A stretch of DNA of 64,000 nucleotides from positions 62,001 to 126,000 of the forward strand of contig NZ_JAMXOD010000003.1 of NCBI RefSeq assembly GCF_024721305.1. The letters run 5' to 3'. How positions within the stretch are numbered: position 1 is the first letter of the stretch; each line of letters opens with the position of its first letter. The translations under genes and the position numbers were made by a program. The notes beneath the pieces were generated by a model. It was not told the origin of the DNA. It saw only the letters and a list, made by a program, of their open reading frames with translations, and did not search any database. Below are positions 15,871 to 52,680 of this stretch, piece by piece. The DNA is from Aequitasia blattaphilus (GTDB lineage Bacteria > Bacillota > Clostridia > Lachnospirales > Lachnospiraceae).

Positions 15871-16741
15871 GTTTCAAAACCCTCCCTTTTATTCTGCCCA
15901 TCCAATTCGATGTTGCATTTGCTTTTATCTGAATCTGAGTCAGCCATTCTTCCAACTCATTTCGTGTGATGTTCCGATCAAGCTTTCCGCTTTGAGCAAC
16001 GGAGACAAAGCCTGTTTCTTCTGAAACCACTACAATCAAGGCATCACTGACCTCACTTAAACCAAGAGCCGCTCTGTGTCTTGTTCCTAACTCCTTGCTG
16101 ATATTCGAACTATCAGTAAGAGGTAGATAGCTTGTAGCAGAGATAATTCGATCTCCACGCATAATAACAGCCCCATCATGCAATGGGGTGTTGTGCTCAA
16201 AAATATTTAACAGCAACTGTTTGGATACCGCTGCATCAACCCTTATTCCAGTTGTTTCATACTCTGTTAGTTGAATTGCCTGTTCCACTACAATAAGCGC
16301 TCCAGTTTTCACGTTGCTCATAGCAAATGTCGCATCTACAATGTCACGTTTTGTAGCATCACTAAAACGGATGCTTTCTCTATTACTTCCATCCAAATTA
16401 ATAACAGAAGTTAAAAATTGTTTTTCCCCTAACTTTTCTAATGCACGTCTTAGTTCAGGTTGAAATACAACAACTACTGCCGTCGCCATAACGGTAATGG
16501 AGTTTCGAACCAGATACAAAATGGTATGCATGCGTAAAATAGTCGCAACCAATACACAAATTGCCAACACTAAAATACCCTTTAAAAGCATCCATGCCTT
16601 TGTATTATTTATCCAGCGAATTAATTGATAGATTAAAAAGGTCAGAATAACTATTTCCAAAATATCCGTAAAATGAATCCTCGGAAAGTAAATATCTGTT
16701 CCGAAAAATCTCTCAATTGATTGCAGAATTGCCTGATTCAC
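15848..16741 (-). CDS. cdaA: Diadenylate cyclase CdaA
   Basis: Makes c-di-AMP from two ATP at the membrane. Protein of 297 aa with three N-terminal transmembrane helices (about 25-100) and a DisA_N cyclase domain carrying the DGA motif (PLHDGAVIMRG) and the RHR motif (GTRHRAALGLSE). c-di-AMP controls potassium, osmolyte uptake and wall homeostasis; the envelope genes downstream in the same operon fit that. Overlaps cdaR. Confidence 0.95.
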   Translation of the reverse strand: MNQAILQSIERFFGTDIYFPRIHFTDILEIVILTFLIYQLIRWINNTKAWMLLKGILVLAICVLVATILRMHTILYLVRNSITVMATAVVVVFQPELRRALEKLGEKQFLTSVINLDGSNRESIRFSDATKRDIVDATFAMSNVKTGALIVVEQAIQLTEYETTGIRVDAAVSKQLLLNIFEHNTPLHDGAVIMRGDRIISATSYLPLTDSSNISKELGTRHRAALGLSEVSDALIVVVSEETGFVSVAQSGKLDRNITRNELEEWLTQIQIKANATSNWMGRIKGRVLKHARKDSK

Positions 16742-38207: not shown

Positions 38208-39035
38208 TTATATAGAAAAATCCCACGTCAAAGGTGTCACTGATATTTTGTTTTCAATAGCAAATACATAAATGTCTGAATTCTTATTCAATCTATTCTC
38301 AGGTATTATTCTCTGAGATTTTAACTCATAGGGCGTATCCAAATCCCGCTTATTCGGTGGAATAAATTCGAAATAATTCTCACTTGCCTGCCTCGTGATT
38401 CTAAAATCCTCTTTCGCTTGAATCTCCCTCGGTATATTAATATTTAAGATACTGGACTCTTTTATCATACCTTCCTTTAAAACTTTTTCAGTCCAGAAAC
38501 GTACCACACTCTTTTCCTTTTCCCACGACAATTTCGGATAATCAGAAAGTAAATGTTGACTTACCTCTGCCTCTCTTGAAAAGGCAAGTGCAGGAATCCT
38601 ATGAGAATTCGCCTCCATCGCCGCACCTAGCGTTCCACTACAAGTCAGTAAAAGCCCTAAATTTTCACCGTAGTTTATTCCGCTGATACATAAATCCGGT
38701 TTACGCTTTGTCATCTCCAAAACACCATGGGCGACTGCATATGCCGGCGAACCAATAATAGAGTATGCTACTCTCTTTTTGCCGTTTAGTGTAAGAGCTA
38801 CTTCTTTTATAATTCCTTGATTTGCTTGTCTCGGAAAAGATCGTCCCATAGCCGTCTGCTGTCTGTCTGGTGCAATGATTAGGAGCTCTCCCAAATCTGC
38901 AACAGCTTCTGCTGCTGCCTGGATTCCCGGGGATAGAATGCCATCATCATTTGTGATAAGGATACGAGGTTTCCTATTTGAAAACTTTATGCATTTGTTT
39001 GAGTAAGGGGTCGGTGTATTCTGTAATTCCATCAT
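38208..39035 (-). CDS. surE: SurE-family 5'-nucleotidase
   Basis: Metal-dependent phosphatase, 275 aa. The N-terminal core after residue 24 reads ILITNDDGILSPGI (NDD metal site); SGINYGENLG and CSGTLGAAMEA follow. SurE removes phosphate from nucleoside monophosphates and other small phosphoesters. It starts inside the 3' end of the FGGY kinase gene (62-base overlap) and ends the operon. A phosphatase after a kinase could serve as a safety valve for a toxic phospho-intermediate; that is inference. The first 20 or so residues are not conserved and an internal start is possible. Confidence 0.85.
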   Translation of the reverse strand: MMELQNTPTPYSNKCIKFSNRKPRILITNDDGILSPGIQAAAEAVADLGELLIIAPDRQQTAMGRSFPRQANQGIIKEVALTLNGKKRVAYSIIGSPAYAVAHGVLEMTKRKPDLCISGINYGENLGLLLTCSGTLGAAMEANSHRIPALAFSREAEVSQHLLSDYPKLSWEKEKSVVRFWTEKVLKEGMIKESSILNINIPREIQAKEDFRITRQASENYFEFIPPNKRDLDTPYELKSQRIIPENRLNKNSDIYVFAIENKISVTPLTWDFSI

Positions 39036-40404
39036 AAACCTCGCTTATTCGTTTATATATTTCCACATTTTCATCTTTCGGAATAAACTCATCTTTAATT
39101 CGCACCATATTTTCAATTGCTTCATCAAAATTCTCATATACACCACATGCTATGGCAACACAAATCGCCGATCCAAGACCTGCCGCTCCATTTACTTCAT
39201 TACGAACCGCCTTAATCCCAAAGACATCTGCAAAAATCTGCATAAACAAATCACTATTGGATCCACCGCCTGTAATGATGATTTTATCTAATCCCACTTT
39301 CAACTCATCTGTCATATCATTCACGTGGCGTTTCATTGTCATTGCTACCGCTTCCAGCAGAGAACGATATATATGGCCTCGAGTATGACGTCCATCAAAT
39401 CCAATCATCATTCCTTTTTTATACTGAGCGTCTACCGGTGCCAGCCAGTCTAAAACCATTACCAATCCATCACTTCCCACAGAAACCTCTGCCGCCTCTT
39501 CGCTGAGAAGTTCTTCCGGTGAAATGCCTTTGTTCTTTGCGACGATTTCATATCCTTCACCTAAAATATCCTTAAACCAGCTAATCATCCACATTCCTCT
39601 TCGAATGCCATTGCTATCATAAAGATACTTATTCGGAATGCAAGAAAATTTGGGCCATACTGCTTTTGTATTCTTTAAATTTTCTTTCCCTTCCATCATT
39701 GCTGCTGTATATGTTCCTAAAGACACACACGCTGTCGTTTCACCAACACAACCAGATCCAAGTCCCTCAACAGCCTTGTCGTTTGAAGTTGCAACCACTG
39801 GAAGGCCTTCTGGCAACCCTGTTGCAAGACTTGCAGCCTTCGTAACGTATCCAAGAATCTCTCCAGGCATTACCAAATCAAAAAGCATTTCCCTTGGCAT
39901 TCCTGTGGTTTTGTATGCCTCTTCTTCATCTGACCATCTCCAATTGTCTATATCAATTGGCCAAACCCCTTCATAATTCGCAACCGTATCTTTCCGCTCA
40001 CCTGTTAATCTATGGGTAATATATCCCGAAGAAGCCACAATATATTTCACATCACCATTTGTATGTTCATAAGGTTGTGCCACTCGTACATCCATCCAAC
40101 TAAGTGCTGGCTGTGCTAAGGTTCCGTCTTCTTTTAAATACGCTCTGCAATAACGAATTGTACAAAGACCAATACCTATAATGTCCTTCACATCTCCTTT
40201 AAAATTTGCCATGCACTTTTTTCCTGCAACGCAGATAGCTGTCCACCAATCATCATCAGGATGCTCAACGTATCCAACTTTTGGAAGATTGTAAGGACGT
40301 AATGCTTCTTTTCCTTCACACACAATTCTTCCCTTTGTATCAAAAATTAAAATCTTGGCGCTTTGAGAGCCTTCATCAATTCCGATAATATATTTTTCAC
40401 TCAT
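38974..40404 (-). CDS. FGGY carbohydrate kinase, YgcE-like
   Basis: 476 aa sugar or polyol kinase of the FGGY family. The phosphate motif YIIGIDEGSQSAKILIFD is at the N-terminus; the second-half adenosine motif reads IIITGGGSNSDLFMQIFAD. Substrate unclear (xylulokinase-like rather than glycerol kinase). With an SDR, a YgcU-like FAD oxidase, Etf genes and a GlpP-family protein nearby it matches the E. coli ygc gene set, in which ygcE is the kinase. Confidence 0.88.
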   Translation of the reverse strand: MSEKYIIGIDEGSQSAKILIFDTKGRIVCEGKEALRPYNLPKVGYVEHPDDDWWTAICVAGKKCMANFKGDVKDIIGIGLCTIRYCRAYLKEDGTLAQPALSWMDVRVAQPYEHTNGDVKYIVASSGYITHRLTGERKDTVANYEGVWPIDIDNWRWSDEEEAYKTTGMPREMLFDLVMPGEILGYVTKAASLATGLPEGLPVVATSNDKAVEGLGSGCVGETTACVSLGTYTAAMMEGKENLKNTKAVWPKFSCIPNKYLYDSNGIRRGMWMISWFKDILGEGYEIVAKNKGISPEELLSEEAAEVSVGSDGLVMVLDWLAPVDAQYKKGMMIGFDGRHTRGHIYRSLLEAVAMTMKRHVNDMTDELKVGLDKIIITGGGSNSDLFMQIFADVFGIKAVRNEVNGAAGLGSAICVAIACGVYENFDEAIENMVRIKDEFIPKDENVEIYKRISEVYDGITEYTDPLLKQMHKVFK

Positions 40405-40435
40405 CTTTTAAGTACCTTCCCTTAGTTATCATTTC

Positions 40436-41218
40436 CTAGCGTACAAGATATCCACCGTCAACAACTAGCATCGTTCCGTTTACATAGTTCGAAGCCTTGC
40501 TTGCTAAGAATACACACGCTCCCATTAAGTCTTGTCTTTCTCCCCATCTTTCTGCTGGAATATGATCCAATACTTTTTTGTTTGTTTCAGGATTGCTTCT
40601 CGTCTGTACCGTAATATCAGTTGCATAATATCCTGGTGCAATTCCATTTACCTGAATATTGTATTTACCAAGCTCATCTGCATAAGCCTTAGTCAGCCCT
40701 GTAAGCCCATGTTTCATTGCCGCATATGCAGGAGAACCTAAACCTCCAAGGAAGGAGAATAAAGAACAGATATTAATAATCTTACCACTCTTTTGAGGAA
40801 TCATATATTTTGCACACTCATGACTCAACTCAAAAGAGGCTGTGAGATTGATTGCAATCATTGGATCCCAGTCATCTCTGTCAAAGTCTAAAACATCATT
40901 GATATTACAAATCGCTGCACAGTTCACTAGTATATCAACGCTACCGAATTTTTCCACACAGTTTTCAACGATTGTCTTTGGCACTCCCTTAACAGATATA
41001 TCTGCTTGCATAAACTCATATCGTACCCCAGCACCTTCGATTAATTTTTTTGTCGTACCATCATCATCCACATAGCTTGCACAGAAGATGTTTGCACCGG
41101 CTTTTGCTAATGAAAGAGCAAAGGTTTGTCCCAGACCACTGTTTCCTCCCGTAATGACTACATTCTTCCCCTTAATCTCAAAGAAATCCAATCCAAATTC
41201 ATTAATGTCATATCCCAT
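40436..41218 (-). CDS. Short-chain dehydrogenase, YgcW-like
   Basis: 260 aa NAD(P)-dependent SDR: cofactor motif VITGGNSGLGQTF, catalytic SPAYAAMKHG (Tyr-x3-Lys), and the IPAERWGERQDLMG tail typical of gluconate/2-deoxygluconate-type dehydrogenases. Start at 41218 is fixed by GGAGG (8 bases); the 26-codon longer reading runs back through the leader terminator. First gene after the regulated leader RNA, followed by the kinase and SurE. Likely oxidises a polyol or sugar acid. Confidence 0.9.
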   Translation of the reverse strand: MGYDINEFGLDFFEIKGKNVVITGGNSGLGQTFALSLAKAGANIFCASYVDDDGTTKKLIEGAGVRYEFMQADISVKGVPKTIVENCVEKFGSVDILVNCAAICNINDVLDFDRDDWDPMIAINLTASFELSHECAKYMIPQKSGKIINICSLFSFLGGLGSPAYAAMKHGLTGLTKAYADELGKYNIQVNGIAPGYYATDITVQTRSNPETNKKVLDHIPAERWGERQDLMGACVFLASKASNYVNGTMLVVDGGYLVR

Positions 41219-41252: not shown

Positions 41253-41319
41253 AAAAAAAGAGCAACTTTCACCAAAACTTGGTAAAAGTCACTCATCTCT
41301 CCGTCTCTGTTAAGTAACT
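41253..41319 (-). ncRNA. Antitermination leader A (SDR operon)
   Basis: Begins close to the expected transcription start. AGTTAC (41319-41314) can pair with GTGACT (41292-41287; one G-U pair), enclosing a 21-nt loop with CAGAGA and GAGAGA. GTGACT is also part of the 5' arm of an 11-bp intrinsic terminator (ACTTTTACCAA / TTGGTGAAAGT, then seven Ts at 41259-41253). The two folds exclude each other. The same layout occurs at 51112 and 51315. Confidence 0.85.
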
Positions 41320-41325
41320 AACCTC

Positions 41326-41354
41326 ATTATACGAGCCATAATTTCTATTGTCAA
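41326..41354 (-). promoter_or_regulatory. Consensus sigma-A promoter of the SDR operon
   Basis: Minus strand TTGACA, exactly 17 bases, TATAAT: a perfect consensus match. Such a strong promoter implies control acts afterwards, at the leader terminator. Confidence 0.92.
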
Positions 41355-41406
41355 TATCAGGAAATCACCCAATAATCTATTACTTTTTTGGTAGTTTTTC
41401 ACAAAG

Positions 41407-42978
41407 TTATAAAAGATTTGCATCTTCTAAATATTCTCTTGCAACCTCTCTTGGAGTCATCTGTAACTCATCTACCTTATAATTTAATTCCATCATCACT
41501 TCATCCGTTAGAATCTGCCTTAATTCCTCTATCGGCTCCTGTATCTCTGGATATTTTTCTAAAACTTCTCCACGTATCACCGGAATAGCATAATAAGGTG
41601 GAAAGAAATTTTTATCGTCTTCCAGAACTTGAAGATTAAACTTCTTAATAAGCCCATCTGTTGCAAAAGCATCTACAACATCAGTCTCTTGACTGTTGAG
41701 GGCTGTATACCTAGGAGAGCCGTCGATTCCAACGGTTTCTTTAAAATTAATACGATAGACTTCAGAAAGTCCTGGAAATCCATCACTTCTATTTAGAAAT
41801 TCCAAGGTTGCGCCAAAGGTTAGATTCGGAGACACTTTTCCCAAGTCACTAATAGTGGTCAGGTTATATTTTTTTGCTGTATCCGGCCGAACCGCTAACG
41901 TATACGTGTTATTAAAGTTCATTTGTTCCAAAACTTCAATATCAAATTCTTCTTTAAATTCCTTTTTAACTGTATTGTATACTTTTTTCATGTCACTGGA
42001 CATGGGATGTTTTAAGGTATCACCATAGGCTGTTCCTGTATATTCAATATACATATCTACTTCTCCTGTTTTTAAAGCTCCCATACAGACCTGAGTTCCT
42101 CCCAACTCACTTTCTCTGCGCACTTCAATGTCTGTCCTGTCTTCTACCATATCTGCCAGCATATGAGTTAAAATGCTTTGCTCTGTAAAATCCTTTCCTG
42201 CAATTGTAATCGACTTATCACTTTTTTTGTTTGTACTAATTCCCGTATAAAGAAAAAGAACTGCCACCATACATGCGCAAACTGCCAGAATTATTTTTTG
42301 ATGCTTCCGTCTCTTTTTTACAAGGGCTAATGATACTCTTTCCGAATTCTGAAGACTAACTGGTGTCACGATTTTTTCGACTAATCCCGCCAAATAATCT
42401 ACAAATAGGGCAAGTAAACAGGCGGGAATCGCCCCTGCTAAAATCTGATTATTATTGACTGTACGGATTCCTGAAAAGACTAGGTATCCCAATCCCCCCG
42501 CACCGATAAATGCTGCGATTGTCATCATACCGACAGCTGTTACCGCTGATATACGAACTCCTGCCATAATAACAGGTAACGCAATAGGAATTTGTACCTT
42601 CGTTAATATCTGAAACTTTGTCAGTCCGATTCCTCTTGCAGACTCTACCATATCCTTATCGATATTCGCAATCCCTGTATATGTATTCTTGATTATCGGA
42701 AGTAACGAATATAACACAACTGTGATAACCGCTGGTAATGTCCCGATTCCAAGAAAAGGAATTGCAAACCCCAGCATTGCCATACTGGGAATTGCCTGGA
42801 TTACGTTGGCAAGACCTATAATAGGCTTACTCAATTTTCGAACGTAACAGATTAAAATACCAAGAGGTACTCCAATTAAAAGAGACAAACCCACTGCAAT
42901 CGCCGTCAACTGTATATGGTTCAAAAGGAGTGACAGAATCTGATTCCGGTTCATTATTATATAATCTATAAATCCCAT
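41407..42978 (-). CDS. OpuC/OpuF-type ABC transporter permease fused to substrate-binding protein
   Basis: 523 aa. Residues 1-215 are a binding-protein-dependent permease with about five helices (EAA-like GIGLTKFQILTKVQIPIALP). A transmembrane link follows (about 230-250), then a periplasmic-type binding domain of the glycine betaine/osmoprotectant class (about 255-523: ITIAGKDFTEQSILTHMLAD, IEYTGTAYGD). Imports a quaternary amine or a similar compound with the ATPase encoded just upstream. Last gene of the long Etf/FAD-oxidase operon, an unusual neighbour for an osmolyte carrier. Confidence 0.9.
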   Translation of the reverse strand: MGFIDYIIMNRNQILSLLLNHIQLTAIAVGLSLLIGVPLGILICYVRKLSKPIIGLANVIQAIPSMAMLGFAIPFLGIGTLPAVITVVLYSLLPIIKNTYTGIANIDKDMVESARGIGLTKFQILTKVQIPIALPVIMAGVRISAVTAVGMMTIAAFIGAGGLGYLVFSGIRTVNNNQILAGAIPACLLALFVDYLAGLVEKIVTPVSLQNSERVSLALVKKRRKHQKIILAVCACMVAVLFLYTGISTNKKSDKSITIAGKDFTEQSILTHMLADMVEDRTDIEVRRESELGGTQVCMGALKTGEVDMYIEYTGTAYGDTLKHPMSSDMKKVYNTVKKEFKEEFDIEVLEQMNFNNTYTLAVRPDTAKKYNLTTISDLGKVSPNLTFGATLEFLNRSDGFPGLSEVYRINFKETVGIDGSPRYTALNSQETDVVDAFATDGLIKKFNLQVLEDDKNFFPPYYAIPVIRGEVLEKYPEIQEPIEELRQILTDEVMMELNYKVDELQMTPREVAREYLEDANLL

Positions 42979-42979
42979 C

Positions 42980-44104
42980 TTATACCTCCTCTTTCATATA
43001 CTGTTGACTTAAAGTGGCAATCAAAGTGCTTCTCGTAATAACACCCTGCAGCATTCCCTCCGCATCCACTACCGGAATACTGGAGATATCATTTTTCATT
43101 ACAGCCTTTAACACCTGCAGTATTGAATCCTCTGGACTGGCATATATGTAGTTTTCTTCCATCACCTGCTTTATAGGCAAAGTACGGTCCATATCAAAGG
43201 GAACGCTCTGTGCATACAAAACACCTTGTATCTTTTTTGTTTTTGCCTCCACAATCATCAATGCGTCATCTTTGGCACTGCGCATAATTTCCATTCCTTT
43301 AAAAAGAGATAAGTTGCCGTTGCCCGTAATATTATTCTCCTCCATTATGTCCTTCGCTTTAATAAACTGAGGAGAAGCCCAAATACGTTTCTTCCCTACA
43401 AATTCTGATACAAAATCATTTGCTGGACTCTTTAAAATATTTTCCGGGGTATCATACTGTACGATATGTCCCTTATCCATGATGCAGATTCGATCTGCAA
43501 TCTTTATCGCTTCATCCATATCATGGGTCACAAATACAATCGTCTTTTTCAGCTTTCTCTGCAGCTCCACCAACTCGTCTTGTAATCCGATTCTCGTAAT
43601 CGGATCGAGAGCTGACAAGGGCTCATCCATTAAGATAATATCAGGATCTGTCGCAAAAGCTCTTGCCACTCCTACACGTTGTTGTTGTCCACCGCTTAAC
43701 TCCGCAGGATAACGATCCAAAAACTCCTCGCAATTAAGTCCAACCATCTCCATAAGCTCGTACGTTTTCTTTTGTATATCCTCTTTACTGTATTTTTCCA
43801 CCTTCGGTATAATCTCAATATTATCTTTTATAGACATATGTGGAAACAATCCGGTCTGTTGGATTACATATCCCATTTTTCTTCGCATCTTTATGAGATC
43901 TTTTTTACTGATATCTTCTCCATCGATTAATATGTGCCCTGCAGTGGGGTCAATTAGACGGTTAATCATTTTTAATGTCGTTGTTTTCCCGCATCCGCTC
44001 GCTCCGATAATTACAACAAACTCACCGGTATTAATCGTAAAAGAGATATCGGATATGACCTTGTTCCCTTTGTATGCCTTGAACACATTTTTAAACTCAA
44101 TCAT
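42980..44104 (-). CDS. OpuC-type ABC transporter ATPase with CBS domains
   Basis: 374 aa. ATPase domain (about 1-235): Walker A IGASGCGKTTTLK, signature LSGGQQQRVGVARA, Walker B IILMDEPLSALD. Two C-terminal CBS modules (about 250-370: MIVEAKTKKIQGVL, SSIPVVDAEGMLQGVI) as in OpuCA, where CBS domains sense ionic strength or bind c-di-AMP. One base from the permease/binding-protein gene. Confidence 0.92.
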   Translation of the reverse strand: MIEFKNVFKAYKGNKVISDISFTINTGEFVVIIGASGCGKTTTLKMINRLIDPTAGHILIDGEDISKKDLIKMRRKMGYVIQQTGLFPHMSIKDNIEIIPKVEKYSKEDIQKKTYELMEMVGLNCEEFLDRYPAELSGGQQQRVGVARAFATDPDIILMDEPLSALDPITRIGLQDELVELQRKLKKTIVFVTHDMDEAIKIADRICIMDKGHIVQYDTPENILKSPANDFVSEFVGKKRIWASPQFIKAKDIMEENNITGNGNLSLFKGMEIMRSAKDDALMIVEAKTKKIQGVLYAQSVPFDMDRTLPIKQVMEENYIYASPEDSILQVLKAVMKNDISSIPVVDAEGMLQGVITRSTLIATLSQQYMKEEV

Positions 44105-44127
44105 CCGCTCCCTCCACTCTTAGCTTT

Positions 44128-44709
44128 TTACTCATTAAGTTTCCACACCTCCATATTTGTCGTAGATACAGCTATCGCTCCTGCCTTTAAGGCACCCATT
44201 ACATCCTCTTGGTCAAGAACTAATCCACTGGCCACCAAAGGCTTATCCACCTGCTCCAATACATACCGAATCATTTTCGTAAGACCTGCTGGCATAATTT
44301 CCACAACATCTGGATTATTCTCTTTTACATGCTTCTTGATGTTTGCATAAGTAATCGCATCAATCATAAAAAATCTCTGTACCGTAAAAAGACCCAGCTC
44401 ATTTGCTCTCTTTATTAAAAATGGTTTCGTACTAATGATTCCGTCTGCCTTCGTATATTTCTTGATAAAATCCACTGAAATATCTCGTGTAGATAATCCT
44501 GTGATCAAATCCACATGTACAACCGCCATTTTACCGGCTTCCTTCACTTCCTCTACAATGTCTGCAATACTGCACACATCTCCATACAAAATGTAAACAA
44601 TGTCGCAAGAGGACTCTTTGCATGCCTTTAGCCACTCATCATTTTTTATCCCTGCAATTATCGGTGTTCCTTCCGTACTATCCAAAAAATACTGTAATGC
44701 ATTCTCCAT
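44128..44709 (-). CDS. GlpP-family antiterminator, YgcP-like
   Basis: 193 aa. GlpP-type TIM-barrel-like protein: STEGTPIIAGIKNDEWL, VHVDLITGLSTRDISVDF, ADGIISTKPFLIKRANELG, VVEIMPAGLTKMI, LVASGLVLDQEDVMGALKAG. B. subtilis GlpP is glycerol-3-phosphate responsive and prevents termination in leader RNAs. The start at 44709 has a GAGG site. The gene lies in the operon controlled by leader B, so positive feedback is expected if it acts on these leaders. E. coli YgcP is the same family in the ygc cluster. Ligand here is unknown. Confidence 0.88.
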   Translation of the reverse strand: MENALQYFLDSTEGTPIIAGIKNDEWLKACKESSCDIVYILYGDVCSIADIVEEVKEAGKMAVVHVDLITGLSTRDISVDFIKKYTKADGIISTKPFLIKRANELGLFTVQRFFMIDAITYANIKKHVKENNPDVVEIMPAGLTKMIRYVLEQVDKPLVASGLVLDQEDVMGALKAGAIAVSTTNMEVWKLNE

Positions 44710-44721
44710 ATCTGACCTCAC

Positions 44722-45693
44722 TTATTCTTTCTTTAAAAGGGTTATTAGGTTTGGTACTATTGTATACAAATCTCCTACTATAGGCAAATGTGCCACACTG
44801 AGAATAGGCGCTGTCTTGTCTATATTCACTGCGATAATCTTCTTTGCATTCTTCATACCAGTCATAAACTGAATTGTTCCGGATACTCCAAAGGTTATTA
44901 TCACCTCTGGTTTGACCACATTTCCCGATACTCCGATTTGGGCTTTTTGAGACATCCATCCCTTTTCCACTAGCGCTCTGCTGGAAGCAAGCTCTCCTCC
45001 CAGAAGGTGAGCCAACTCTCTTAAAAGCTCCAAATCCTCCTTTTTTTTCACTCCTCTTCCCGCAACTACCAAAATCTCCTGATCTGTAATTCCTCCCTTC
45101 TCTTCCTTTTCCTCTCGTGCCAACAACTGGGGTGATTTATTCTTTTGACCTAATGTCTTCTTTTCAACTACTGTCTTTCCACTACTGTCTGTAAGAGCCG
45201 GAAAAATCCCCGGTCTTACTGTTGCAATTTGAGGCCTTGTTCTTTCCGTCAAAATACTTGCCATAATATTGCCACCAAAGGCCGGTCTCGTTTGAACCAG
45301 ATTCCTATTCTCATCAAATTCAAGCATTGTACAATCTGCTGTCACCCCTGTTTTCATCGCTACTGCAATGCGGGAAGCAAATCCACTTCCAATTGGTGTC
45401 CCTCCAAGGAGTAAAATGGAAGGTGAAATTTTCTCGATGCATTCCACCATTGCCTCCTCCCACAACTCGGAAAGGCAGGCACCTTCCTGGATATACCACC
45501 ACACTTTTTCAATCGGCAGGCTGCAAAGCTGTGATTCAATCTCCTTACTTTCTTCTCCAATTGCTACGCCGTAAACAGGCTCATTACAGATTTTTTGCAA
45601 TTCACAAGCCTTGGCAATCAATTCCAAGCTTACTTTTTCAATTTTCCCTCTGGTATACTCTAAGAAAACAAATATTCCTTTCTCTTCTCTCAT
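44722..45693 (-). CDS. Electron transfer flavoprotein alpha subunit, YgcQ-like (set 1)
   Basis: 323 aa. N-terminal nucleotide-binding-fold domain (LLLGGTPIGSGFASRIAVAM) and C-terminal FAD domain with GELASSRALVEKGWM, IGVSGNVVKPEVII and GVSGTIQFMTGMK. The usual His in the IQH segment is Phe here. Pairs with EtfB set 1 (9-base gap) to carry electrons from an FAD oxidase. Confidence 0.88.
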   Translation of the reverse strand: MREEKGIFVFLEYTRGKIEKVSLELIAKACELQKICNEPVYGVAIGEESKEIESQLCSLPIEKVWWYIQEGACLSELWEEAMVECIEKISPSILLLGGTPIGSGFASRIAVAMKTGVTADCTMLEFDENRNLVQTRPAFGGNIMASILTERTRPQIATVRPGIFPALTDSSGKTVVEKKTLGQKNKSPQLLAREEKEEKGGITDQEILVVAGRGVKKKEDLELLRELAHLLGGELASSRALVEKGWMSQKAQIGVSGNVVKPEVIITFGVSGTIQFMTGMKNAKKIIAVNIDKTAPILSVAHLPIVGDLYTIVPNLITLLKKE

Positions 45694-45702
45694 ATTGCTT
45701 TC

Positions 45703-46485
45703 CTAATCCTTCCTAAGGAAGGACAGTATCTCCATTGCTCCATCCATTCCTTCTAAAACCTGTGCTTCCACTGCTTGTGTTCTTTTTGGTGGGAAGATTT
45801 TTTTAACCTTTGTTGTGGAGCCTTTGATTCCATAATGATTCACATCACCATCTTCCAGATTGTCAATAGACATCTCATTTACACTTTTGTTTTTACTTTC
45901 TAACCGTCCCTTAAAAGAAGGCATTCGTGGAACAAACCCTTCTCGGTTCACTGAAATCAAACAAGGATAGTTTATTTTCAAAACTTGAATAAATTCTCCC
46001 AGATCCTGATGAATCTCCATGCCATCATTGGATATCTCCAAAAGCTTTATGACTCCCTGATAATTTGGAAGTCCTAACCATTTTGCCAGTGCCGGACTTA
46101 CTTGAGATGTGTCTCCGTCCGTTGTCTGCTTTCCACATATAATCAAATCATATTTATTAACTGCAAGAATCCCCTGCATCAAAGTGTAAGATGTCACGAG
46201 TACATCTGCACCCCCGAATCTTGAATCCGTTAACAGATAGCCTTTGTCCACCCCATAAGCATAGGCATCCTTTATCATAGCTTCTGCATTCTCTGGTCCC
46301 ATAGAAAACACATCGACCGTGGCATTTGCTTCTTCTTTGATGCGAAGTGCTGCCTCTAGGGCTGATAAATCATAAGGATTTGTAATGGTTTCCAGTCCAC
46401 TTCGTTTCATAAGACCAGTTTTTTCATCCATGTCTCCTTCACTATAAGCCGGAACCTGCTTCATACACACTGCAATCTTTATCAT
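45703..46485 (-). CDS. Electron transfer flavoprotein beta subunit, YgcR-like (set 1)
   Basis: 260 aa from the ATG at 46485 (GAGG upstream; GTG 46497 and ATG 46491 are less likely). EtfB core: MIKIAVCMKQVP, ITNPYDLSALEAALRIKE, LIICGKQTTDGDTSQV and ALAKWLGLPN. Its start overlaps the end of FAD oxidase 1, so oxidase and Etf are coupled. Confidence 0.9.
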   Translation of the reverse strand: MIKIAVCMKQVPAYSEGDMDEKTGLMKRSGLETITNPYDLSALEAALRIKEEANATVDVFSMGPENAEAMIKDAYAYGVDKGYLLTDSRFGGADVLVTSYTLMQGILAVNKYDLIICGKQTTDGDTSQVSPALAKWLGLPNYQGVIKLLEISNDGMEIHQDLGEFIQVLKINYPCLISVNREGFVPRMPSFKGRLESKNKSVNEMSIDNLEDGDVNHYGIKGSTTKVKKIFPPKRTQAVEAQVLEGMDGAMEILSFLRKD

Positions 46486-47872
46486 ATGCATCCTCACTGA
46501 ATATATTTCCTCGATTTAACAATCGATTGGGGTCATACTTTCTCTTCTGCTCTTCTATCTGAGCAATTTGATCTTTCGTGAAAATACAACCTGCCAAATC
46601 ACTTTTTACTTTACCAATTCCATGTTCTACCGTAATCTTTTTATATTTCTTATAAGCTTTCTGATTCCAGAATGATAGAAGGCGTCTTCCTCTCTCATAC
46701 TCATCATAATTCTTCGGAAGAATATTGGCATGAAGATATCTTCCTTCTACATGTCCAAATATTGTAATGTCTATATTATTCGCCTTTGCCGCCTCCGTAT
46801 AAAATTCCACACACTCTTTTAATGAGAGTCCAGGCAATGCCATATCGGATTCTAATTTCGTGATCCTGTCATCGTTTCTTCGTGCTTCTTCAATAAAGAG
46901 ATTCGTACATTCTGCCACACTATGATGAAAGGCACGCATTCTCTGTATTTCCGCTTCACCCATTACCGCCCACGCTTTATCTGGATTACCATCGCATTGA
47001 ATCACAAGCTCCATCAGTTTCTCGGCTATTTGCGTGATTGCATCCTCTTTTCCTCCAATCTCAATATAGAGCAAATGGTTGAATTCAGGTTCTACGTCCG
47101 GCAGTTCTTTTATTTTTGTCATAAACTCTTTTTTGCTTTCGACTAAATCGATGGAAGCACGGTCAACATACTCCATTGCAACGATGTAACCAAACGGAGT
47201 ATCTTCTATCTCTTCTATTCCATTCACAAAATCATTAACCTGGGCTAATTCTTCAAAAAAGAAGGTGATTCCCCAATTCTCCTCCGGTTTCTTTTCCAAA
47301 AGCAAAGTGGCTTTTGTGATAACCCCGTACAGACCTTCACTTCCGATTACCGTGTCGAGTGAACTTTTATCCAATATGTGAAGCTTTCCCATTCCATCCA
47401 CCAAATGAATCTCTGAGACATACTTCCTCGTGTCTTCATAGTAAGCTATGTTAATTCCTCTCGCAGCAGTAGCCAATACCCCACCTATACTAGCTGTCGT
47501 TTCTGTTGGAGAAGGGGGCCAAAAATACCCTTTCCCCTTGAAATTCCGATTAATTCCCTGCTCCAGTTCTTCCAAACTTACTCCCGGCTCCAAAGTTACA
47601 GTCGGACCATCATTATCTGTATATGCCTCTATCCTCTTCATTTTCTGTAGGTTCATAATATGTCCACCTACAGGGACACTTCCACCCACAATTCCTGTCA
47701 TAGAGCCTTGGATTGTAACCGGAATATTCTCTTTTCCAAGAGTTTCCATAATTTCTTGGATTTCTTCTTCTGACTCCGGAAAAGAAATACTAACTGCACT
47801 CCCTTGATTTTTGGATTCATCTGTCAGGTATTCCTGGTATTTTTCTTCCATCGGGTATATCTCTCTACTCAT
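46442..47872 (-). CDS. FAD-linked oxidase, GlcD/D-lactate dehydrogenase type (set 1)
   Basis: 476 aa. FAD_binding_4 domain (about 25-205: PVTIQGSMTGIVGGSVPVGG, SPTETTASIGGVLATAARG, GSEGLYGVIT) and FAD-oxidase C domain with ITIFGHVEGRYLHANILP and TVEHGIGKVK. Oxidises a 2-hydroxy acid or related alcohol and hands electrons to EtfAB. Overlaps both neighbours. No Fe-S domain. Confidence 0.88.
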   Translation of the reverse strand: MSREIYPMEEKYQEYLTDESKNQGSAVSISFPESEEEIQEIMETLGKENIPVTIQGSMTGIVGGSVPVGGHIMNLQKMKRIEAYTDNDGPTVTLEPGVSLEELEQGINRNFKGKGYFWPPSPTETTASIGGVLATAARGINIAYYEDTRKYVSEIHLVDGMGKLHILDKSSLDTVIGSEGLYGVITKATLLLEKKPEENWGITFFFEELAQVNDFVNGIEEIEDTPFGYIVAMEYVDRASIDLVESKKEFMTKIKELPDVEPEFNHLLYIEIGGKEDAITQIAEKLMELVIQCDGNPDKAWAVMGEAEIQRMRAFHHSVAECTNLFIEEARRNDDRITKLESDMALPGLSLKECVEFYTEAAKANNIDITIFGHVEGRYLHANILPKNYDEYERGRRLLSFWNQKAYKKYKKITVEHGIGKVKSDLAGCIFTKDQIAQIEEQKRKYDPNRLLNRGNIFSEDAYDKDCSVYEAGSGL

Positions 47873-48830
47873 TTGCTTCTTCCTCTCCCAGAATTTCTTT
47901 TACAATTGCTTCTAAAACCTCCGTCACATCACCGATTACTGCTATGTCTGCTTTTTTTATGATTGGTGCTTTTTCATCATTGTTGATTGCAATAATGAAA
48001 TCACTTTTTTCAACCCCTACGTAAAGTGCCGGTGCACCGGACGCCCCTGCTACAATCGCAATCTTTGGTGCTAATATTGCTCCTGAGGCTCCCACTAATC
48101 GTTCCATTGGAACCCATCCATTCATCGCCACTGGTCTGGAGACTCCAAAAGATGCGCCAATGCGCTCTCCCATTTCCCTTAGCTGCGAAATGGTTCCTTG
48201 ATTTTTTGCACCTTTCCCTGCAACTAATACAAAGGAGCTTTTCGTAAAATCTTCTTCCTGTTTTGCCTCGACTTGCTTTACATTTGAGAAGAAATCCCCA
48301 TCATCCTTTAGGTATACCTCTGTAGCTTTCGTCTCAATCCCACTCTCTGCAGGCAACCGTTTTTGTCCTTTTGAAAGACAGAGAAAAACGGGTGTATTTA
48401 AAAGCTTGTACTCTCCCATCATATGACCGGAATAGAACTTCTTCTCACCGAAAAGCCCTCCTTCTTTTTCGTAGCATCTCTCACAATCTGTTAGAACACT
48501 TCCCTTTAATCGGTAGGACAGTCTGGGTGCTATTTCCAATCCCATATAACCAGAACTAAAAATGCAGATATCTTCCTTTTCAACTATCGTCTCCAGATAT
48601 TTCAAAAGAATTTCACTGTTATACCGTTCCATGAAAACAAAAATAACGGAGGATGTGGGGACCATTTCCGTTAGCTTCTCCTTATCATCTCCATCCATTT
48701 CGTCTCCACCGATGATAAGTACGTTATTCAATTCTATATCCTCTCGTGATTCGGAAATAAAGCAATTCACTTCTTCCAATTGCTTCTCCAAATCTCCCTT
48801 AAAAGCATTTAAGATAATCTGACATCTCAT
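47865..48830 (-). CDS. Electron transfer flavoprotein alpha subunit (set 2)
   Basis: 321 aa, more divergent than set 1. C-terminal FAD domain is clear: FVLVAGKGAKNQGTISQLRE, FGVSRPVAMNGWVPMERL, VGASGAILAPKIAIV and IAINNDEKAPIIKKADIAV. The N-terminal half is poorly conserved. Overlaps FAD oxidase 1 by 8 bases and EtfB set 2 by 4. Confidence 0.85.
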   Translation of the reverse strand: MRCQIILNAFKGDLEKQLEEVNCFISESREDIELNNVLIIGGDEMDGDDKEKLTEMVPTSSVIFVFMERYNSEILLKYLETIVEKEDICIFSSGYMGLEIAPRLSYRLKGSVLTDCERCYEKEGGLFGEKKFYSGHMMGEYKLLNTPVFLCLSKGQKRLPAESGIETKATEVYLKDDGDFFSNVKQVEAKQEEDFTKSSFVLVAGKGAKNQGTISQLREMGERIGASFGVSRPVAMNGWVPMERLVGASGAILAPKIAIVAGASGAPALYVGVEKSDFIIAINNDEKAPIIKKADIAVIGDVTEVLEAIVKEILGEEEANE

Positions 48831-49609
48831 AATTTCATCATCCTTTCCTTTAAATAGAAGGGATATAAATCTTCTTTTGAAACAATTATACCTTCTCGTT
48901 TTTCAATCACCGGATAAGAATTTACAAGAGTATGAGCTCCTGTTCTATCTTCACTTGTTATTGAAACAGGTACAATTTCTTTCTTACCTCTCTTCATACG
49001 ATCCTTTAAGGTTGGTACGCGAAGATAAGTACCTGGAACATCACCGATTACTGCGATAAAAGCTCCTTGTATATCGCGAATCTGTGTTCCTCCATCATAT
49101 AGATTCGTGACCCTTATTCGATCGTTCTCCAAAAGTTCCATATTGATTACAGATGTCACACACGGTATTTTTAATTCCTCAGCCAGAAAAAGAGGCACGC
49201 ACCCACTTGCATTATCTGCACTTTTACTACCCATAATAATCAAATCTGGCATTTCATTTCTATCTATGTAATCTTTCATTATCGCCGTAGTTTTCCCCGG
49301 CTCAAACAAAACATCTCCATCACTCTCAATCCGATCGGCTCTATCAAAGCCTAATGCATACAAGGTTTTCAGATAATTATCACATATCTTATTTCCTATC
49401 GTAACGCCATTAAGCTTAATGGAAGTGCCTAAGCCCTCTCCCATATCAGAGAGCTTAAGCATCATTTCCAATGCGCTTTCGTCAAATACATTCAACATGG
49501 ATTTGACAAAGCTTGTATCTACCAGGTGATTATCTCCTGGCTCCCAATCTTCTGTAGACAGAAGATCTAAATCCGGTACAACCTTAAAACTCCCAAGGAT
49601 GCTTTTCAT
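48827..49609 (-). CDS. Electron transfer flavoprotein beta subunit (set 2)
   Basis: 260 aa. EtfB landmarks: FVKSMLNVFDESALEMMLKL, LYALGFDRADRI and LIIMGSKSADNASGCVPLFL. Starts inside the end of FAD oxidase 2 (26-base overlap), so it is translationally coupled to it. Confidence 0.85.
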   Translation of the reverse strand: MKSILGSFKVVPDLDLLSTEDWEPGDNHLVDTSFVKSMLNVFDESALEMMLKLSDMGEGLGTSIKLNGVTIGNKICDNYLKTLYALGFDRADRIESDGDVLFEPGKTTAIMKDYIDRNEMPDLIIMGSKSADNASGCVPLFLAEELKIPCVTSVINMELLENDRIRVTNLYDGGTQIRDIQGAFIAVIGDVPGTYLRVPTLKDRMKRGKKEIVPVSITSEDRTGAHTLVNSYPVIEKREGIIVSKEDLYPFYLKERMMKL

Positions 49610-51050
49610 TGTGCTTAATTGGGATTAATGTTCCCATATTCATGATACCGTTCGGATCAAATGCCTTTTTAAGCGTATCCAGTATATAGAAAGATGAGCC
49701 ATATTCTTCCCATACGTAATGCGCTCTGGCTTTTCCAAGTCCGTGATGGTGAACGATAGAACCGCCATATTTAATAACCTCTTCGCAAATAATTCTGTTG
49801 ATTTGGTTGTGGTACTTATTAATCTCTTCTTCAGGAGTACAATCTACTACATTATAATAGTAAACAAAATACATATTGGTTCCATTGATATAGCTATGAG
49901 AAGAATGTCCTCCCATTAATGTCATGTCTGGAACTTCCTCCATAATTCTCTTGCAAGCATTGTCATAAATCTCATAGATACAATCCCAGCATCCTGAAAC
50001 TTCCGTTGTAATACCAATATTATTGGTTGCTAATATCTCCAACTTTTCTTCTGCAATTTCTTCCGGTCCCCAGTTAAGTCCTGCAAACCATTTTTCAATA
50101 ATCTTAGAATCAACAGTATCTACTCCTGGAAATCCTTTGACGATTTCATCGATTCCTTTGGCTGTTGCATTTGTAATTCCACTTGGACCTTCTGCCATGA
50201 AAATCAATACATTTTTATCTCCTGACCAGTCAAAATGAAGACTTGCATCTGCTGCGTCATAAAGTCTTGCGATTGAAGGCTTAAATCCTTCTACCATAAC
50301 AGCTCTTAATGCATCAAATCCATTTTTCATATTGTCAATCGTATATCCTAAAAACAGATTATTTTCTGGTTGATACTTGAAAATTTTAATTGTCACTTCT
50401 GTAATGTAGCAAAGCGCTCCCTCATTTCCAATGACAACGTGTCTGATATCTGGACCTGCTGCTCTTCTTGGAATGTTTTTCACACGGCACACTTCTCCAT
50501 TTGGAAATACTGCTTCCAATCCGACTACCATATCTTCTATTCCACCATATAGCGTGGAGAACTGTCCAATACTCCTGGTTGCAACTAATCCACCTAACTG
50601 CGCAAGAGGTTTTGACTGTGGAGAGTGGCCAGTTGTATATCCTTGTTCTCTTAGCATATCATCTAATTCTTGCAATGGAACACCACACTGTACTGTAACC
50701 TGCATATTATACTTATCAATCTTAAGTACTTTATTCATTCCCGATCCATCTACTACAATAGAGTTTTCTTTTGCTGTTTCCAGTCCGCCTTCAATTGCAG
50801 ACTGTCCCGTTCTTGGAACGACGTTAACTCCATGTTCATTGGCAAACATCAATACTTTCTTCACCTCATCTGTTGACTCCACATACACAACTGCTGCCGG
50901 CATTGGCTGTGTGTATATTTCATGCACCTGCTCAAATTTTCTGTAGCGATCCAAGCTACTTTCTTTTAAGACTGTCTCATCTGTGATAACTCTGTCACTG
51001 CCCAAAATATTAATCAGTTCCTCAACTATCCGCTCTTTTTGTAATTCCAT
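49584..51050 (-). CDS. FAD-linked oxidase, YgcU / alkylglycerone-phosphate synthase type (set 2)
   Basis: 488 aa. FAD_binding_4 domain (about 45-230: VVPRTGQSAIEGGL, TGHSPQSKPLAQLGGLVATR, GNEGALCYITEVTIK) and a C-terminal domain carrying SIVHHHGLGKARAHYVWEE, the HHHG motif shared with alkyldihydroxyacetone-phosphate synthase and E. coli YgcU (of nearly the same length). Probably an oxidase using the neighbouring EtfAB, not an ether-lipid enzyme. First gene of a nine-gene operon behind leader B. Confidence 0.88.
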   Translation of the reverse strand: MELQKERIVEELINILGSDRVITDETVLKESSLDRYRKFEQVHEIYTQPMPAAVVYVESTDEVKKVLMFANEHGVNVVPRTGQSAIEGGLETAKENSIVVDGSGMNKVLKIDKYNMQVTVQCGVPLQELDDMLREQGYTTGHSPQSKPLAQLGGLVATRSIGQFSTLYGGIEDMVVGLEAVFPNGEVCRVKNIPRRAAGPDIRHVVIGNEGALCYITEVTIKIFKYQPENNLFLGYTIDNMKNGFDALRAVMVEGFKPSIARLYDAADASLHFDWSGDKNVLIFMAEGPSGITNATAKGIDEIVKGFPGVDTVDSKIIEKWFAGLNWGPEEIAEEKLEILATNNIGITTEVSGCWDCIYEIYDNACKRIMEEVPDMTLMGGHSSHSYINGTNMYFVYYYNVVDCTPEEEINKYHNQINRIICEEVIKYGGSIVHHHGLGKARAHYVWEEYGSSFYILDTLKKAFDPNGIMNMGTLIPIKHNEKHPWEF

Positions 51051-51111
51051 TTTCTTGCTCTCCTTTCAACAATGAACTGTGCCTGTGGGGAACGCTCTAT
51101 TTTTAGATAAT

Positions 51112-51193
51112 AAAAAAAGAGAAAACTTCCCCGTCAATATCCTATTCGTTAGGACACTACGAGTTACTTTTCTCTTTATCTCTGTTTGTAACT
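51112..51193 (-). ncRNA. Antitermination leader B (FAD-oxidase/Etf operon)
   Basis: AGTTAC (51193-51188) pairs perfectly with GTAACT (51167-51162) around a 20-nt loop with CAGAGA and AGAGA. The competing terminator uses GAGAAAA (51174-51168) with TTTTCTC (51125-51119), an inner TCCTA/TAGGA hairpin, and seven Ts (51118-51112). The 372-base space 51051-51423 holds only two divergent promoters and leaders B and C. Confidence 0.85.
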
Positions 51194-51199
51194 AATCTC

Positions 51200-51228
51200 A
51201 ATATAAACAAGAATAGTAAAATTGTCAA
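51200..51228 (-). promoter_or_regulatory. Sigma-A promoter of the FAD-oxidase/Etf operon
   Basis: Minus strand TTGACA, 17 bases, TATATT: one mismatch from the full consensus. Confidence 0.9.
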
Positions 51229-51278
51229 TTGTGCATTATGTATAGGATTTGAAATTCGTTTTTGGTTCATTTGACTGA

Positions 51279-51307
51279 TTGACAAAAAAAAGGTATCGCT
51301 ATATGAT
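51279..51307 (+). promoter_or_regulatory. Sigma-A promoter of the MFS gene
   Basis: Plus strand TTGACA, 17 bases, TATGAT. Divergent from the Etf operon promoter, about 50 bases away. Confidence 0.9.
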
Positions 51308-51314
51308 TATTTCA

Positions 51315-51374
51315 AGTTACTTGCAGAGATGAGAGAGATAGGTAGCTTCTACACTGGTAGAAGCTGCCTTTTTT
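51315..51374 (+). ncRNA. Antitermination leader C (MFS gene)
   Basis: AGTTAC (51315-51320) pairs with GTAGCT (51342-51347, one G-U pair) around a 21-nt loop with CAGAGA and GAGAGA. GTAGCT is also in the 5' arm of a 12-bp terminator (51341-51352 with 51357-51368) ending in six Ts. Confidence 0.85.
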
Positions 51375-51423: not shown

Positions 51424-52680
51424 ATGAGTGATTCAAAAAAAAGCTTTATCAAAAAATATGGAACACTGCTTCTCTTAGCAGCAGGCGCAGGAATAATCTT
51501 TCAGCTTCCATATATACGGGAGACATTCTACCCACAAATCCAAGAGGCAATGGGTCTTACGAATGCACAGATGGGTCTTCTTTCTTCCGGCTATGCAACA
51601 ATGGCAACTTTATCTTATTTTATTGGAGGAATTGTAGCAGATAAATTCTCAGCCAGAAAGTTGCTTACGTTCTCCTTCATTATAACCGGTATTTTAGGAC
51701 TTTGGTTCTCCACATTTCCCAGTTATAATGTGGCAAGATTAATCTTTGTATTGATGGGAATATCTACAATTATCACCTACTGGTCTGCATGCATTAAAGC
51801 AACCCGTATGCTTGGTACTTCTGAGGAACAAGGCCGTCTTTTCGGACTGCAGGAAGGACTTCGCGGTGTTTTAAACGCACTTCTTGTGTTTGGTATGACA
51901 GCTGTGTACTCCCATTTTGCGGTAAAGAGTGAGATCCTAGGTACCTCGGCTGCAATTAAACTATGTTCTGTTGTTGTAATTATTATTGGAATCTTAAACT
52001 TTATTTTCATCGAAGATACTAAAAAGGAAGAAAAAAGTGAAAGTATTTTGGAAGTCACAAAAGGAATGTTCAAAGCACTTACAATCCCTCGGGTTTGGAT
52101 TCTGGTAGCAATCATCTTTACTGCCTACAGTGTATATGGCCTAATTGGTTACGTGAATACATATGCTGTAAAATACTTCGGGCTATCTGCTGCTCTTGGT
52201 TCTACACTTGGTGCTATACGTTACTTAGTACAGGGTCTAGGCGGTGTAATTGGTGGATTCCTTGCAGATAAGTTAAAATCCAGAATCAAAGTTATTGTTG
52301 GTGGATGTTTCTTCTTGGCACTTTGCTTTGCAATGCTTATTTTCCTTCCAGTTGAGGCAAGTCTCTTAGGCGCAGTAATCGGCAACTTTATGTTTGGTCT
52401 TTTATTTATCTACGCTGTAAGAAGCCAATATTTCGCAGTACACGATGATGCTGGCATTCCTGTTTCCATGAGTGGTCGTGTATCTGGTATTGCTTCTTGT
52501 CTTGGATACGCACCTGACTTATTTATGTATACTTTAGTTGGTTCCTGGATGGACAGCTACGGAGCGGCTGGCTTTAAAATGACCTGGGTGTATGCTGTTG
52601 TCGCAGCGCTCCTTTGTATCGTCTTCTCCTTTATCCTTTCTCGTATTATAAAAAAAGATACAGCAAAAACCACACTATAA
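51424..52680 (+). CDS. MFS transporter, YqcE-like
   Basis: 418 aa, twelve membrane helices, major facilitator family. Features: FYPQIQEAMGLTNAQMGLLS after helix 1, GGIVADKFSARKLL between helices 2 and 3, RLFGLQEGLRGVLN in the middle, and GFLADKLKSRIKV in the second half. The layout and several segments (FGLTNxQxG, LGxSEEQGRLFG) resemble E. coli YqcE, encoded next to ygcE. It probably imports the compound used by the kinase, SDR and FAD oxidases. Only intact plus-strand protein gene in the window. Ribosome site GGGAGGG. Confidence 0.88.
   Translation: MSDSKKSFIKKYGTLLLLAAGAGIIFQLPYIRETFYPQIQEAMGLTNAQMGLLSSGYATMATLSYFIGGIVADKFSARKLLTFSFIITGILGLWFSTFPSYNVARLIFVLMGISTIITYWSACIKATRMLGTSEEQGRLFGLQEGLRGVLNALLVFGMTAVYSHFAVKSEILGTSAAIKLCSVVVIIIGILNFIFIEDTKKEEKSESILEVTKGMFKALTIPRVWILVAIIFTAYSVYGLIGYVNTYAVKYFGLSAALGSTLGAIRYLVQGLGGVIGGFLADKLKSRIKVIVGGCFFLALCFAMLIFLPVEASLLGAVIGNFMFGLLFIYAVRSQYFAVHDDAGIPVSMSGRVSGIASCLGYAPDLFMYTLVGSWMDSYGAAGFKMTWVYAVVAALLCIVFSFILSRIIKKDTAKTTL

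Follow-up and report, generated by a model that had tools for sequence, protein, structure and literature searches.

In a stretch of 64,000 nucleotides (nt) from Aequitasia blattaphilus (contig NZ_JAMXOD010000003.1, positions 62,001 to 126,000; hereafter the window, whose own numbering is used below), three transcription units of a ygc-type locus are each preceded by the same small element, in which a six-base arm, AGTTAC, can pair with a partner, GTRRCT, across a purine loop carrying two GAGA blocks. From its sequence, conservation and genomic company, we consider it probable (roughly 85%) that this element is the RNA target of YgcP, a putative antiterminator of the PF04309 family that would switch on all three units.

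Three leaders of a ygc-type locus share a candidate antitermination element

The leaders read AGTTAC-TTAA-CAGAGA-CGG-AGAGA-TGA-GTGACT on the minus strand from 41319, AGTTAC-AAA-CAGAGA-TAA-AGAGA-AAA-GTAACT on the minus strand from 51193 and AGTTAC-TTG-CAGAGA-TGAG-AGAGA-TAG-GTAGCT on the plus strand from 51315, with loops of 21, 20 and 21 nt, respectively, that consist mostly of purines. An earlier reading of this DNA (the original prediction) had pointed out these shared blocks and strong promoters with 17-nt spacers, and both can be read directly from the leaders (Table 1). The pattern AGTTACN{2,5}CAGAGAN{8,22}GTRRCT has three matches in the 3.2-Mb genome, all at this locus, and the reversed-pattern control has none; moreover, the three leader promoters are the top three of the 45 promoter sites listed in the window (35.1 expected from shuffles). 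Within the window the partner varies by one-sided changes to G-U pairs only, and two-sided changes known from other genomes add to the earlier observation that the partner changes while pairing is kept. The claim that the partner lies in or against the 5' arm of an intrinsic terminator held fully for the 41319 and 51315 leaders and in part for the 51193 leader, whose terminator, with an inner hairpin, was not among the matches of the terminator scan and appeared on folding.

Each window element begins 6-7 nt downstream of its -10 box, and the element starts 6 or 7 nt past the -10 box in 21 of the 23 cases with a recognised sigma-70-like promoter, indicating that it is probably the extreme 5' end of the message. 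Transcription would thus start at or beside AGTTAC, and by default the partner and its neighbouring bases would fold into the intrinsic terminator, stopping transcription ahead of the gene. YgcP, presumably loaded with a phosphorylated ligand from the pathway, would bind the AGTTAC..GTRRCT hairpin with its (R)GAGA..GAGA loop and hold the partner in this 5' hairpin, blocking the terminator and allowing all three units to be transcribed. Since ygcP itself lies inside the second element-controlled unit, such a switch would reinforce its own expression. That the GlpP/YgcP-family protein binds the element and stabilises the antiterminator was the proposal of the original prediction, and two of the checks it named, enrichment near ygcP homologues and covariation of the pairs, came out in its favour. 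By analogy with GlpK, glycerol 3-phosphate (G3P) and GlpP, the ligand is perhaps the product of the YgcE kinase.

Conservation of the hairpin and its overlap with terminators

The original prediction had called for pairing covariation in further examples, and an alignment of 60 distinct elements contains it: two-sided changes occur in four of the six stem pairs, mainly as G-C to A-U replacements in nine rows, and 96.4% of cells are paired compared with 5.4-53.1% when the partner is slid, counts that lean towards structure through the way the rows were collected (see below). The length of the element ranges from 28 to 34 nt. When the regions upstream of ygc genes were searched for the loop RGAGA-N2-6-GAGA, it was present in 109 of 264 regions (111 loops in total); a flanking stem of at least 6 bp accompanies 106 of the 111, of which the 81 fetched by the exact pattern, arms included, are uninformative on the stem. 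Among the 30 loops that had not been selected in this way, mostly yqcE leaders of related enterobacteria together with transporter leaders of Lachnospiraceae/Clostridia and Enterococcus, and with one site in L067 counted as two rows, a stem of at least this length is present in 29, and the one stemless case is the window's own 41319 leader, shortened by the assumed start of the downstream short-chain dehydrogenase/reductase (SDR). A reversed-sequence control of the stem scan (30 versus 106) was discounted, since even a reversed element remains a half-match.

The overlap with terminators was followed in 115 occurrences chosen for having both a stem and a T run, which gave 101 distinct leaders after removal of 12 duplicates and two that were not parsed. 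On free folding, at least four of the six partner bases are taken up by the terminator in 93 of these 101 leaders, and the median predicted energy is -26.8 kcal/mol compared with -11.5 kcal/mol when the hairpin is enforced. These data also bear on whether AGTTAC..GTRACT is instead an operator in the DNA, bound by a repressor or activator and overlapping the terminator by chance. Palindromic arms near a start site would suit an operator, yet the variable length of the element is hard to reconcile with a fixed protein-DNA geometry, its loop has a strand-specific sequence, the arm changes preserve RNA pairing with G-U pairs included, and the partner falls within the terminator in the 93 leaders just described, all of which make an operator highly unlikely.

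Occurrence with ygc genes and PF04309 proteins

We scanned a species-genome collection (84,980 species) exactly with AGTTACN{0,6}AGAGAN{3,6}GAGANNNGTRRCT and obtained 82 matches in 74 stretches. A ygc homologue starts 20-500 nt downstream on the same strand for 78 of these matches (70 stretches), in line with the enrichment near ygcP homologues that the original prediction had named as a check. Of the remaining four, two lie at the edge of their stretch (L056, L094), one is in a stretch that contains ygcP, ygcW and ygcE (L097), and one, from Zixibacteria (L066), is in a stretch without a ygc homologue and looks like a chance match. According to record titles, the element occurs in Enterobacterales, Vibrio and Photobacterium (Vibrionaceae), Clostridia, Streptomyces, Nocardiopsis, Anaerolineaceae and a spirochaete metagenome-assembled genome, and copies are also found on plasmids of Enterococcus raffinosus and Streptomyces clavuligerus. 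Two records are probably contaminant contigs, because their proteins match those of Escherichia coli at 100% (L088, labelled Planctomycetota) and at 46-93% (L100, labelled Chryseobacterium).

A PF04309 protein scored above the cut-off in 46 of the 49 element genomes tested (reached via 50 loci); the misses are G166 (L066), G173 (a 2.0-Mb assembly, L076) and G181 (L088). In the order to which G150 belongs, PF04309 was above the cut-off in two of 148 genomes, and exactly these two carry two oppositely oriented elements, G278 being the sole independent case because G150 was the centre chosen for having the element. Among the other 146 genomes, two have one loose match each, and reversed-control matches occur in six.

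The exact element is narrower than the protein family. In 150 genomes of the Lachnospiraceae, the full pattern was found in A. blattaphilus and one other species of the genus, also in three copies, and PF04309 was above the cut-off in 43, indicating that most GlpP-family genomes of this sample are without the exact version. A covariance model (R1) searched over the same 150 genomes gave matches in six. In A. blattaphilus, G077 and G085, ygc genes and PF04309 are present; the match in G081, a genome with no PF04309 match, belongs to an element-like leader; the match in G118 lies between reading frames, without an AGAGA loop and without a T run behind it, and that in G056 is inside a reading frame of 438 amino acids. 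The 41319 copy was absent from the hits of the filtered R1 run over these genomes.

A similar loop in glp leaders

The exact loop had no match in 30 GlpP loci; the first glp examples came to light once the loop was relaxed and the stem left free. Leaders of glp genes in Cytobacillus, Listeria, Acetoanaerobium, Paenibacillus and Lachnospiraceae carry a similar RGAGA-N-GAGA loop on different but pairing stems. For example, the Cytobacillus glpF and glpD leaders read GTGA-A-AGAGA-TTAA-GAGA-C-TCAC and GGT-T-AGAGA-CCAC-GAGA-G-ACC, each with its 3' side in a predicted terminator, and Listeria has TGTCA-GGAGA-AGAGA-TGACA upstream of glpK. In an automatic test, the loop motif preceded 10 of 32 terminators upstream of glpK (30 loci) compared with 29 of 480 reference terminators (p 4e-5), which were drawn from the window and 40 PF04309 regions and include true elements. 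The flanks of the 10 glpK leaders, chosen without regard to a stem, pair better than all 20,000 re-pairings (none as good), and with four extra leaders, two picked by eye and two from the stem scan, none of 2,000 re-pairings was as good. In addition, when 40 Lachnospiraceae PF04309 regions and 12 plasmid loci were scanned under looser criteria, 17 sites emerged, compared with 2.8 in shuffles; 12 of the 40 regions have such a site, several probably by chance. Thus, the element is present at ygc units as the original prediction had it, but it is not peculiar to the ygc pathway, since a similar loop also stands before glpF, glpK and glpD terminators, and is more aptly regarded as the YgcP form of a target common to the GlpP family.

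The glp leaders also help to decide what binds the element. A small riboswitch, in which a pathway metabolite binds the purine loop and favours the antiterminator while YgcP does something else, would fit a small conserved loop and mutually exclusive predicted folds. We regard it as quite unlikely because the element accompanies a PF04309 gene across phyla, because glp leaders in organisms that have GlpP-type proteins show a similar loop, and because Rfam scans at the gathering score returned nothing at the element, in the window or at six other ygc loci (the only hit was sok, elsewhere in the E. coli stretch). Alternatively, another RNA-binding protein might bind the hairpin, with PF04309 co-occurring merely as a member of the cluster; ygcP lies near its presumed targets in ygc loci, which means that co-occurrence alone cannot discriminate between the two. 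The similar loop before glpF, glpK and glpD, which are different genes with a PF04309 protein as their common part, makes this second protein very improbable.

Several observations nevertheless weigh against YgcP-dependent antitermination at this element or narrow the evidence for it. The number of pair types in the 60-element alignment is not above that of shuffles (reached in 140 of 500), and most rows were fetched by a fixed-arm pattern and further copies by a stem-requiring scan, which is why the pair counts lean towards structure. Three of the 101 folded leaders freely form the antiterminator and five form neither structure, the 51193 leader among them, in which three of the six partner bases are paired in the predicted terminator. 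The half-element AGTTAC-N4-CAGAGA, whose fixed spacing fits the 41319 leader only, occurs at chance level in the window (five with up to two mismatches versus 4.5 expected), so that the half-element alone is no proof. In the automatic test, 22 of the 32 terminators upstream of glpK lacked the loop motif, and 28 of the 40 Lachnospiraceae PF04309 regions are without an element of this kind within about 9 kb. Finally, in G081 an element-like leader precedes a partial reading frame that resembles ygcE, and the genome gave no PF04309 match. At this locus (L197, in a genome that is 95% complete), a promoter, an element-like hairpin and a terminator precede the partial frame, and the leader is possibly a decaying remnant of the switch.

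A locus in a Klebsiella pneumoniae record (L124) has a distant PF04309 protein clustered with an FGGY kinase, an SDR, a 2-hydroxyacid dehydrogenase and phosphotransferase system genes. A terminator-like hairpin lies upstream, and the loop scan found no RGAGA-N-GAGA loop; this is perhaps another PF04309 branch with another RNA target.

The E. coli K-12 ygc cluster

Most gene families of the window locus are shared with the ygc cluster of E. coli K-12, which likewise has the element, before ygcW and yqcE. In the ygcW-yqcE intergenic region it is found on both strands, each copy running into a predicted terminator: the ygcW leader reads AGTTAC-C-AGAGA-TAAT-GAGA-AAG-GTAACT and the yqcE leader AATTAC-T-AGAGA-CCT-GAGA-AAA-GTAATC, the latter having ATTAC/GTAAT where others have GTTAC/GTAAC. 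E. coli YgcP, annotated in the sequence record as a 'putative anti-terminator regulatory protein', is 41.5% identical to the window protein. The two clusters differ in that E. coli has two element-bearing leaders and the window three, in that ygcP is convergent with the ygcW-to-ygcQ genes in E. coli and in line with its unit in the window, and in that the 22-kb E. coli stretch, unlike the window, has no annotated OpuA/OpuB genes.

Between the divergent ygcW and yqcE leaders lies TGTGATCGTAATCACA (L005, E. coli K-12, 16399-16414), which is close to the CRP consensus; if it is a CRP site, E. coli would combine CRP control with antitermination. PhyloScan predictions reportedly concern Crp. In the PhyloScan paper, ygcW and yqcE are both among the top predictions (PMC1794230). 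Another study (PMC4448311) lists two riboswitch candidates of E. coli under ygcW; they lie at 2901746-2902595, some 1.4-2.2 kb away from the leader.

YgcP and known antitermination systems

The window protein is the sole PF04309 match in its genome, which agrees with the claim that a GlpP-family protein is encoded among the three units. It is 50% identical to one Lachnospiraceae GlpP-type protein and 28% and 30% identical to PF04309 proteins of Listeria and Cytobacillus, respectively; both protein groups share 19 conserved alignment columns, which do not by themselves identify the ligand. Its solved relatives by sequence are 3kts and 1vkf, presumably Listeria and Thermotoga proteins. A tree of 72 proteins unites 23 of the ygc-linked ones in a clade (100/97), and three Lachnospiraceae ygc-linked proteins, the window's included, adjoin the Lachnospiraceae GlpP-type proteins; a single origin of the ygc-linked proteins was not rejected (p-AU 0.26).

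Protein-stabilised RNA hairpins exclude an intrinsic terminator in the BglG/LicT-RAT and ANTAR systems, which differ from the present one in protein family, the window protein belonging to PF04309, and in RNA motif. The closest known system is that of GlpP in Bacillus subtilis, which matches PF04309 in our control profile search. GlpP is reported to act via a terminator in glp 5' untranslated regions that contain a promoter, a GlpP site and an intrinsic terminator (PMC9604022). The window resembles the glpD, glpFK and glpT(Q) leaders of this system in having a genomic PF04309 protein and, by predicted folds, a promoter, a hairpin and an intrinsic terminator ahead of the gene. It differs from the classical glp regulon in that its targets are ygc-type genes rather than glpF, glpK, glpD or glpTQ and in the AGTTAC/GTRRCT stem. 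The likeness of the loop holds for part of the glp leaders only, the 10 of 32 terminators given above, and is drawn from the glp leaders of Cytobacillus, Listeria and others.

Genes of the locus

Judged from gene order, the genes of the locus probably form three transcription units (Table 1). Most genes of the second unit were profile-scanned; those at 44722-45693 and 45703-46497 were named by similarity. The longest SDR reading frame of the first unit starts at 41296, within the leader, and the likely start is the ATG at 41218 after GGAGG. In the second unit, a triad of FAD-oxidase and the beta and alpha subunits of electron-transfer flavoprotein (ETF) is tandem-duplicated at 44722-51050, compared with one set plus ygcN/ygcO in the E. 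coli cluster. The same unit has an OpuA/OpuB-like ATP-binding cassette (ABC) transporter (41407-44104), with an ATPase carrying CBS domains and a permease fused to a binding protein, and a transporter of this kind is also found in the ygc cluster of Enterococcus raffinosus (L113). The Opu-like transporter in ygc clusters suggests a solute of the quaternary-amine or polyol type as a possible substrate.

Table 1. Features of the ygc-type locus in window coordinates
Feature	Position	Strand	Remarks
Unit 1 genes	38208..41218	minus	SDR (ygcW-like), FGGY kinase (ygcE-like, 38974-40404), SurE-family protein (38208-39035)
Promoter, ygcW-ygcE-surE unit	41326..41354	minus	TTGACA-17-TATAAT; 12/12 consensus positions
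Candidate antiterminator element 1	41287..41319	minus	5' arm AGTTAC 41319-41314; partner GTGACT 41292-41287
Predicted intrinsic terminator 1 and U tract	41253..41294	minus	Terminator scan (41294-41260) and folding; 6/6 partner bases paired inside
Unit 2 genes	41407..51050	minus	Two FAD-oxidase/ETF-beta/ETF-alpha triads, GlpP/YgcP-family protein, OpuA/OpuB-type ABC transporter
YgcP	44128..44721	minus	PF04309 G3P_antiterm, E 1.2e-61; inside unit 2
Promoter, long ygcU..ygcP..opu unit	51200..51228	minus	TTGACA-17-TATATT; 11/12 consensus positions
Candidate antiterminator element 2	51162..51193	minus	5' arm AGTTAC; partner GTAACT
Predicted intrinsic terminator 2 and U tract	51112..51174	minus	Folding; GAGAAAA..TTTTCTC outer stem, inner hairpin
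Promoter, transporter unit (unit 3)	51279..51307	plus	TTGACA-17-TATGAT; 11/12 consensus positions
Candidate antiterminator element 3	51315..51347	plus	5' arm AGTTAC; partner GTAGCT
Predicted intrinsic terminator 3 and U tract	51340..51374	plus	Terminator scan (51340-51369) and folding; 6/6 partner bases paired inside
Major facilitator superfamily transporter (unit 3)	51424..52680	plus	32% identity with E. coli YqcE (418 aligned positions)

Implications

Antitermination of this kind is already known; what is new, to our knowledge, is a ygc regulon with its targets in E. coli and the loop signature in explicit form, a judgement on the signature that leaves aside the GlpP work of Glatz et al. (1996, 1998). 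Among the matches listed in a search of the open-access literature by title and abstract, no paper dealt with YgcP function or a ygc leader element, and in a study of premature terminators (PMC2965389) no word of the main text starts with glp, ygc or yqc.

Beyond this locus, we lean slightly towards the view that PF04309 proteins recognise a common RNA code across at least five phyla, with YgcP as a branch that has its own phosphorylated ligand and serves an uncharacterised oxidative pathway. If so, the constant (R)GAGA..GAGA loop would mark the GlpP family, and the freely variable stem, which lends its 3' arm to the terminator, would adapt each leader and perhaps keep paralogous PF04309 proteins apart. 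E. coli K-12 would then have an unreported YgcP antitermination regulon. The finding equips a cluster whose function and regulation are undescribed in the literature searched, for E. coli K-12 as well, with a candidate regulator, a list of targets and an assay. It also offers an RNA signature that can be searched for and from which other GlpP/YgcP regulons should be predictable, in a family whose target escaped the Rfam scans. A further prediction is that an intermediate of the ygc pathway acts as the inducer, in which case the substrate of the pathway could be found by means of leader reporters.

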